A stretch of 64,000 nucleotides of DNA from Clostridia bacterium 41_269. GTDB taxonomy: Bacteria; Bacillota; DTU086. Each line of letters starts with the position of its first letter. The first letter of the stretch is position 1. This document shows positions 1 through 54,309 of this stretch, one piece after another. The notes beneath the pieces were generated by a model. It was not told where the DNA came from. It worked only from the letters and a program-made list of their open reading frames with translations, and did no database searches. The DNA lies in the NCBI GenBank assembly GCA_001508005.1, contig LGEZ01000007.1:1-64000 (forward strand). Reading direction: 5' to 3'. The position numbers and the translations under genes are program-made.

Positions 1-154
1 GGGAGGCGCGAATAGGATGTGAGCGCCAGCCCCAACTGAGACAGGACGTCGAATTTGGGGCGGTCCGGTTTTGCCCATAACCCTTTGCTCAGAGCTGTCC
101 AGTGTGAGTTCAGGAGTAAGAAAACTGCAGCAGAGACTTTTTGCCAACAAGCTG
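1..154 (+). repeat. Dispersed structured repeat, copy A (5' part outside window)
   Basis: Shares gggaggcgcgaataggatgtgagcgcc...gtccggttttg...gtccagtgtgagttcaggagtaagaaaactgcagcagagac...caacaagctg with copies at 23.8-24.1 kb and 54.0-54.3 kb; followed by terminator hairpin aatcggcttaaataagccgatttttt. Confidence 0.9.
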
Positions 155-181
155 AATCGGCTTAAATAAGCCGATTTTTTT
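155..181 (+). terminator. Intrinsic terminator abutting repeat copy A
   Basis: aatcggcttaaataagccgatt stem-loop followed by T-tract. Confidence 0.75.
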
Positions 182-23760: not shown

Positions 23761-23784
23761 GAAACGGCACAGAAAAATAAAAAA

Positions 23785-23805
23785 GGCACTCTAAACTGTA
23801 GGGCC
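23785..23805. repeat. Left copy of ~21-bp terminator-hairpin duplication flanking repeat copy B
   Basis: ggcactctaaactgtagggcc vs right copy ggcactttaaactgaagtgcc (24076-24096), 18/21 identical. Confidence 0.75.
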
Positions 23806-23808
23806 TTT

Positions 23809-24070
23809 CAGTTTGTTGACAAAGGGTCTCTGCTGCAATTTTCTTACTCCTGAACTCACACTGGACATCTCTAAGCAAAGCTTAAAGACAAAACCGGACC
23901 GTCCCAAATTCGACGTCCTATCTCAGTTGGGGCTGGTGCTCACCTCCTATTCGCGCCTCCCGGTTTTGCCTTACGCTTCGCCAAGAGCTGTTAGCCAGTG
24001 CTCGTTAAGTCGTTTCGCAAACCGCAACAGAGACCTACTAAGATTTACTTAAGAGGGTTTGTCTACAGTC
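23809..24070 (-). repeat. Dispersed structured repeat, copy B (full length)
   Basis: Reverse-complement match to copies A and C; terminal stem GGTCTCTGTTGC/GCAGCAGAGACC. Confidence 0.93.
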
Positions 24071-24075
24071 TGAAA

Positions 24076-24102
24076 GGCACTTTAAACTGAAGTGCCTTTT
24101 TT
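24076..24102 (+). terminator. Terminator hairpin at outer side of repeat copy B
   Basis: ggcactttaaactgaagtgcctttttta. Confidence 0.85.
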
Positions 24103-38872: not shown

Positions 38873-39025
38873 TATTTAGTAATCCTACACCTCCAAAAAT
38901 TCCATTATAGTAAGCAAACCCTGCTGTATTATATAGAATAACCAACTTAAAAACCAATTTTTCTTCTACAGTGAAATAAAGAAAGGGGCAATAACCTGCC
39001 CCTTTCTCTTTTAAAATCTCCGTTT

Positions 39026-39406
39026 TTAGACTTCACTTTTATTTGTATTCTTATCGTTTTTCTTATAAAACTGTTTATACAGCTTCAGAGCTACATCCAT
39101 GCCCATTTTTATTCCTGCTATACTTTTCAAAAGCTTCGGAGCCCCTTTTCCAACCATAAACATAAACGCCAAATTTCCCACAGAATTTCTTAATGCATTT
39201 ATTAACTCCCTTAAGCTTCCAAGAGTGGACTTAGCCTCATCAATAACAGGCAAAAATTCTTTATCAAAAGCTGTCTTTAAAGCCTTAACTTCCAAACTCA
39301 ATTTAAAGATAAGTCGAGCTAACAAAAATGCCCCAGCCACTACCATTAAAACCAACAGCAGTAGGCAAACACCCATTAGCAGCAGAACTATTTCAATGGA
39401 GCTCAT
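39026..39406 (-). CDS. DUF948-like membrane protein
   Basis: N-terminal TM helix, coiled LIFKLSLEVKALKTAFDKEF; upstream YtxH. Confidence 0.65.
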   Translation of the reverse strand: MSSIEIVLLLMGVCLLLLVLMVVAGAFLLARLIFKLSLEVKALKTAFDKEFLPVIDEAKSTLGSLRELINALRNSVGNLAFMFMVGKGAPKLLKSIAGIKMGMDVALKLYKQFYKKNDKNTNKSEV

Positions 39407-48021: not shown

Positions 48022-48143
48022 GGCTGCCTATGGATATAAATGGATATAAATGTGTGCAAATAAAATTGGCAGCCTGGCAGTCATAGCCCATCGGGGCTTT
48101 AGACCCAAAGCTTTGCGCCCCTGCCTTTCGACAGGTTTGCCCT
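48022..48143 (-). promoter_or_regulatory. c-di-GMP-I (GEMM) riboswitch upstream of MCP, with candidate expression platform
   Basis: Minus strand GGGCAAACCTGTCGAAAGGCAGGGGCGCAAAGC...GGGTCTAAAGCCCCGATGGGCTATGACTGCCAGGCTGCC; downstream GGCAGCC can pair with GGCTGCC. Confidence 0.92.
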
Positions 48144-48343
48144 TTTCGTAGGAAATTTTGGGTAATATCAGCATCTGGCATTAAATTTTCGATAAATATC
48201 ATTCATTTCCTGCCTTTTTTAAATAAAATACGAATTTTTGCATTTTAAATTTAAAATAATTCGTAGGTAAAAATAATGGAGAGGTTTTCACCTCTCCAAC
48301 CTCTCCAATTAACTTCTCCATTACTTTTTAAATGTTTAATACC

Positions 48344-54002: not shown

Positions 54003-54022
54003 GCCGAGGAAATTTTCCCGGC
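54003..54022. repeat. Left copy of terminator-hairpin duplication flanking repeat copy C
   Basis: gccgaggaaattttcccggc vs right gccgaggaaattttccccggc (54289-54309), one C difference. Confidence 0.8.
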
Positions 54023-54025
54023 TCA

Positions 54026-54288
54026 AACTGTCGATAAACCCTCTTAAGTATATTTTAGTAGGTCTCTGCTGCGGTTTGCGAAACGACTTAATGAGCACTG
54101 GCTAACAGCTCTTGGCGAAGCGTAAGGTGAAACCGGGAGGTGCGAATAGGATGTGAGCACCAGCCCTATACTTTCATAGGATGTCGAATTTGGGGCAGTC
54201 CGGTTTTGTCTTTAAGCTTTGCCTAGAGATGTCCAGTGCGAGTTCAGGAGTAAGAAAACTGCAGCAGAGACCTTTTGTCAACAAGCTG
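54026..54288 (+). repeat. Dispersed structured repeat, copy C (full length)
   Basis: Terminal stem GGTCTCTGCTGC (54061-54072)/GCAGCAGAGACC (54261-54272); internal GGTGC-gaataggatgtga-GCACC. Confidence 0.93.
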
Positions 54289-54309
54289 GCCGAGGAAATT
54301 TTCCCCGGC
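54289..54309. terminator. Right terminator-hairpin copy flanking repeat copy C
   Basis: gccgaggaaattttccccggctttt. Confidence 0.75.

Follow-up and report, generated by a model that had tools for sequence, protein, structure and literature searches.

TwoAYGGAY (Rfam RF01731) is an RNA motif of unknown function (PMC2864571, PMC4333381) for which binding of CsrA via two GGA loops has been proposed (PMC4333381). GGA hairpin loops within one RNA are also a feature of CsrB, RsmY and RsmZ, the CsrA/RsmA-binding sRNAs encoded by host genes of Gammaproteobacteria. Among mobile elements, IS1272 of the IS1182 family targets stem-loops, which it is reported to replace, and one branch of its authors' model also leads to duplication of the stem-loop (PMC5678879). 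Bacterial MITEs, e.g. MITEAba12 (PMC6382973), are short non-coding sequences with inverted-repeat ends that occur in many copies and duplicate their target.

The repeat described here lies in the window, i.e. the whole stretch of 64,000 nucleotides that was analysed, and has something in common with each of these systems. Like the described TwoAYGGAY RNAs it matches the model over its full length, in some copies below the cut-off, has GGA in the loops of two hairpins, though not in every copy, and shows a conserved multibranch fold, but the RNA is enclosed in a mobile element that ends in inverted repeats and is flanked by duplicated terminator hairpins, and its loops in the host genus are often AYAGGAY or GGAG variants. 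It shares the targeting of hairpins with the IS1182 family, whereas it holds no transposase gene and carries a structured RNA. Short, non-coding and repeated as MITEs are, it differs from them in that the duplicated target is a whole, variable terminator-like hairpin and a covarying RNA fills the element. In contrast to CsrB, RsmY and RsmZ it is a mobile repeat, with about two putative sites per copy. Within the open-licence literature we found neither TwoAYGGAY described as the cargo of a mobile element nor an IS1182-family MITE with a structured RNA, which does not prove that the mobile form of this known RNA family is new.

Anatomy and copies of the element

The order of parts is a hairpin, CAGACTGTNGACAAA, a linker, the RNA core, TTTGTCAACAAGCTG and a matching hairpin, and the ends of the element are the inverted repeats CAGACTGTAGACAAA...TTTGTCAACAAGCTG. 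In window coordinates, the copies and the parts of copy C are as follows; the hairpins, the arms of the 12-bp stem and the AAACCGG/CCGGTTT helix of copy C were read from the sequence itself.

54003-54022, no strand assigned: left host terminator-like hairpin GCCGAGGAAATTTTCCCGGC of copy C, with an A-tract upstream and, on the minus strand, followed by TTTATTTTTT
54024-54038, plus strand: left terminal inverted repeat CAAACTGTCGATAAA
54061-54072, plus strand: 5' arm of the 12-bp stem, GGTCTCTGCTGC
54088-54246, plus strand: TwoAYGGAY RNA core (29.8 bits with the full RF01731 model; sibling copies pass the cut-off of 43, which this copy does not reach)
54130-54136 and 54200-54206: AAACCGG/CCGGTTT helix
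54139-54161, plus strand: hairpin 1, GGTGC (54139-54143) and GCACC (54157-54161), with GGA in the loop
54162-54196 (limits approximate), plus strand: hairpin 2 region, with GGA at 54179-54181
54261-54272, plus strand: 3' arm of the 12-bp stem, GCAGCAGAGACC
54274-54288, plus strand: right terminal inverted repeat TTTGTCAACAAGCTG
54289-54309, no strand assigned: right host hairpin GCCGAGGAAATTTTCCCCGGC, the target-site duplicate
23783-24098, minus strand: copy B, with the element at 23809-24072 and the duplicated hairpins at 23783-23808 and 24073-24098
1-176, plus strand: copy A, right half only (contig start), with the element at 1-154 and the right hairpin at 155-176

A first-pass annotation had described a 20/21-bp hairpin on both sides of copy C, a perfect 12-bp stem within it, the AAACCGG/CCGGTTT helix and an internal stem which reads GGTGC/GCACC in copy C, GGCGC/GCGCC in copy A and GGCGC/GCACC in copy B, and all of these are present. 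The loop of this internal stem, called invariant there, is identical in copies A and C, but copy B has GAATAGGAGGTGA. A scan for terminator-like sites matched the left hairpin of copy C on the minus strand (54024-54001), and no site resembling a promoter was found within copy C. The predicted fold of copy C has an energy of -117.1 kcal/mol, compared with -79.2 +/- 4.75 for shuffled sequences (z = -8.0; 0 of 200 shuffles reach it).

In the host genome the element was located at 26 positions, corresponding to about 23 copies or fragments once halves at contig ends are joined. Six contigs (C6, C13, C15, C17, C24, C27) break inside element copies, and the hairpins of these six halves match uniquely, giving three copies (C17/C13, C24/C27, C15/C6); the left half of copy A, with its matching hairpin, is at the end of contig C15. 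The same unique matches predict three scaffold joins in the host assembly. Copy C shares about 92% identity with both copy B and the copy at locus L004, pairwise identity among 13 aligned host copies does not exceed 96.2%, and copy B has an orthologous copy (L048) in the congener G001. As a separate observation, the left end of the element and a hairpin are followed by unrelated sequence at about 1450-1560 of locus L029 (host contig C13:60947), a locus in which the right end was not found.

We consider it probable that in these lineages the element is a non-autonomous IS1182-type MITE with TwoAYGGAY cargo. Each copy would be a MITE-like transposon of about 265 bp, with 15-bp terminal inverted repeats and the RNA inside.

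The RNA and its fold

Copies C and B score 29.8 and 35.9 bits with the full RF01731 model, whose gathering cut-off is 43 bits, while siblings in the host genome pass it (L004, 51.8; L009, 53.7; the copy at C24:12705, 48.8) and congener copies reach up to 69.7 bits. Judged by the copies that pass, the element appears to carry an RNA of the TwoAYGGAY family. Of 399 genomes of the phylum, 52 had matches to the model, and several copies per genome were common (no more than six candidates were scored in each). None of the other models proposed for comparison in the first-pass annotation, namely HEARO/OMEGA, group II intron, raiA and 6S, had an Rfam match at the element. Elsewhere, contig C4 of the host has a 6S RNA (114.5 bits; L004:2301-2486, minus strand) at a distance of about 0.6 kb from a copy of the element, and a c-di-GMP-I riboswitch (88.7 bits) is located at 48065-48151 of the window on the minus strand.

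For the analysis of covariation, 31 copies from three genomes and 43 base pairs were used, and 92.2% of the cells pair. Changes on both sides of a pair occur in 14 of the 43 pairs and in 68 cells, compared with a mean of 23.1 cells in shuffles, a control that ignores relatedness (0 of 500 reach 68); with slid partners, a control that allows for relatedness but favours a structure derived from these very sequences, at most 7 pairs and 15 cells show two-sided changes. This is the conserved fold with covariation by which a TwoAYGGAY RNA is to be recognised. Moreover, G-U cells (114) outnumber A-C cells (33), which points to an RNA of the stated strand rather than to folded DNA.

The earlier annotation had proposed selection on a folded RNA, to be checked by covariation across the copies, and such selection is supported by the covariation, the G-U excess and the RF01731 matches of the siblings, although it had missed the match to a known RNA family and that the flanking hairpins are a duplication. 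The compensatory C-G to T-A change on which it relied does exist, but is weak evidence on its own, as this pair (columns 86/105 of alignment A1) is CG in 26 of the 31 copies, UA in one, UG in one and unpaired in three; the strong covariation is found in other pairs.

GGA is found in hairpin 1 of 24 and in hairpin 2 of 28 of the 31 copies. Some copies in G001 have exact AYGGAY loops, whereas those of the host are of the AYAGGAY type. The presence of two GGA loops in 57 of 60 copies from other genomes was discarded as evidence, because the search model already contains these loops.

An IS1182-type MITE could also carry such an RNA without any cellular role, its fold being kept because the ancestor was folded or because it aids transposition, and we give this reading a substantial, though lesser, chance. 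Long inverted repeats are common in MITEs, the copies are not biased towards the sense strand, and half of the G001 copies in the alignment no longer have the GGA of hairpin 1, all of which would fit; the compensatory covariation inside the core, the excess of G-U over A-C and the occurrence of the core within different outer repeats in other lineages argue against it.

Duplicated hairpins and the mobilising enzyme

The sequence of the flanking hairpin is specific to the locus, and the left and right hairpins of one locus agree. Among 25 copies with recognisable ends from five genomes, the left/right flank score averages 32.2 within a locus versus 13.1 between mismatched loci (0 of 20,000 permutations reach the observed mean), and in 19 of the 25 the highest score falls to the partner at the same locus. 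The hairpins adjoin the 3' ends of genes. An A-tract generally precedes the left hairpin and a T-tract follows the right one, as expected of a bidirectional terminator-like hairpin that was duplicated around an inserted element. The flanking hairpins are thus not part of the RNA but terminator-like hairpins of the host, which became duplicated when a mobile element inserted. The duplicated hairpin constitutes the target-site duplication expected of a MITE; in contrast to the loss of the stem-loop reported for IS1272, the stem-loop stands on both sides.

No empty site was recovered for copy C, as no orthologue of the neighbouring PEP_hydrolase gene was found in G001-G003, nor for copy B, which is common to the host and G001. 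For an insertion found in G001 only (C5:21148-21380), the corresponding part of the window (about 38965-39049) lacks the insertion, but divergence of the flanks prevents its use as a clean empty site. Read-through transcription was considered as a route of expression and rejected, as the copies showed no sense-strand bias.

Matching ends and the hairpin duplication also surround TwoAYGGAY copies in four genomes of other families (G120, G258, G253, G384). In G384, locus L172 encodes an IS1182-family transposase (NF033551, PF05598 and PF13751) that is split over broken reading frames; it is bounded by CAGTTTGTTGACAAA and TTTGTCAACAGTCTG, which are near-identical to the ends of the element, and the hairpin AGTGCAGAG...CTCTGCACTT stands on both sides. 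The same genome holds the TwoAYGGAY copy L191, and terminal inverted repeats common to the RNA element and an IS1182 element are found in full in this one genome. One such end beside a hairpin was seen at four further loci (L163 in G384; L164, L173 and L184 in G151). An apparent IS1182 end in G161 (L171) was discarded, since it is the end of another TwoAYGGAY copy. The shared ends, the duplication at L172 and the duplicating branch of the IS1272 model (PMC5678879) together lead us to infer that an IS1182-family transposase moved these particular copies in trans. The enzyme would choose a terminator-like hairpin and insert the element at its foot, with staggered strand transfer duplicating the whole hairpin; as a hairpin is left on each side, insertion beside gene ends would cost little.

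The IS1182 DDE domain was not found in the host genome, G001 or G003, and G002 holds a fragment; likewise, a source of transposase (PF13751) is present in G384 but was found neither in the host genome nor in G001, both of which are incomplete assemblies. Together with the copy identities of at most 96.2% and the orthology of copy B in G001, this suggests that the activity of the element in the host genus is probably old. Apart from this, the last approximately 100 bases of locus L100 (G002) hold an IS1182-like transposase 3' end, GAGAAAAGTGCAGCAGAGA, which resembles the right end of the element, AAGAAAACTGCAGCAGAGA, a single short match that may hint at where the MITE end came from.

Most transposases do not usually duplicate an entire palindrome. 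This, and the failure to find an IS1182 transposase in the host genus, would fit another mobilising enzyme, e.g. a Cas1-like integrase or a retroelement, as the agent that duplicates the hairpin, but an IS1182-family element with near-identical ends shows an equal duplication and no group II intron matched at the element, so that we regard such an enzyme as improbable. A free-standing host sRNA or cis-regulatory RNA gene, repeated by chance, whose own 5' and 3' structures would be the hairpins, is very improbable, since the hairpins are locus-specific and duplicated, the copies lie at gene 3' ends and not in leaders, none of 23 lies between divergent genes (both neighbours called, by simple ORF calls) and the terminal inverted repeats are shared with an IS1182 element, even though Rfam types TwoAYGGAY as Cis-reg and its copy number ranges from single to multiple across genomes.

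Returning to the IS1182-type MITE, this vehicle is not universal, as many TwoAYGGAY copies elsewhere are without IS1182-type ends and lie within long inverted repeats that differ in sequence. At L147-L149 (G072) and L144-L146 (G031) the core sits in a different outer repeat, with apparently opposite orientations in the two genera, which would fit repeated uptake of the RNA as cargo.

A possible link to CsrA

CsrA is present in 49 of the 52 genomes with TwoAYGGAY and in 244 of the 347 others (Fisher p = 5.7e-5, phylogeny ignored). The three genomes lacking a CsrA match are G182, G236 and G313; G182, with strong TwoAYGGAY copies (63.4 bits) and an assembly that is 94% complete, represents either an assembly gap or a genuine exception that speaks against the CsrA reading. 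The host itself encodes CsrA, as expected for the host of a CsrA-binding sRNA, in a flgL-fliW-csrA locus (L067; csrA beside fliW, and flgL named by inspection of reading frames). The co-occurrence and this locus lend moderate support to the published idea of a CsrA sponge, whereas the three exceptions and the G001 copies that have lost the GGA of hairpin 1 count against it.

If the RNA of the element is transcribed, as we presume, its paired GGA hairpin loops may bind CsrA, so that each copy would act as a small CsrA decoy. On present sequence evidence, we hold the chances of such a putative sponge role to be slightly short of even. The wider suggestion that TwoAYGGAY is a mobile CsrA decoy throughout the phylum, carried repeatedly by different small transposons, with dozens of copies beside gene ends titrating CsrA, is speculative and on balance rather unlikely.

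The function of TwoAYGGAY has been unexplained since 2010, and its carriage by a transposon that targets terminators, in several lineages, accounts for the many copies and their intergenic positions. Two ideas thereby become directly testable: recognition of hairpin structure by IS1182 transposases, with duplication of the hairpin, and titration of CsrA by RNAs that transposons carry in bacteria other than Gammaproteobacteria. If the mobile-decoy reading were true, transposition would change the dose of a global regulator.
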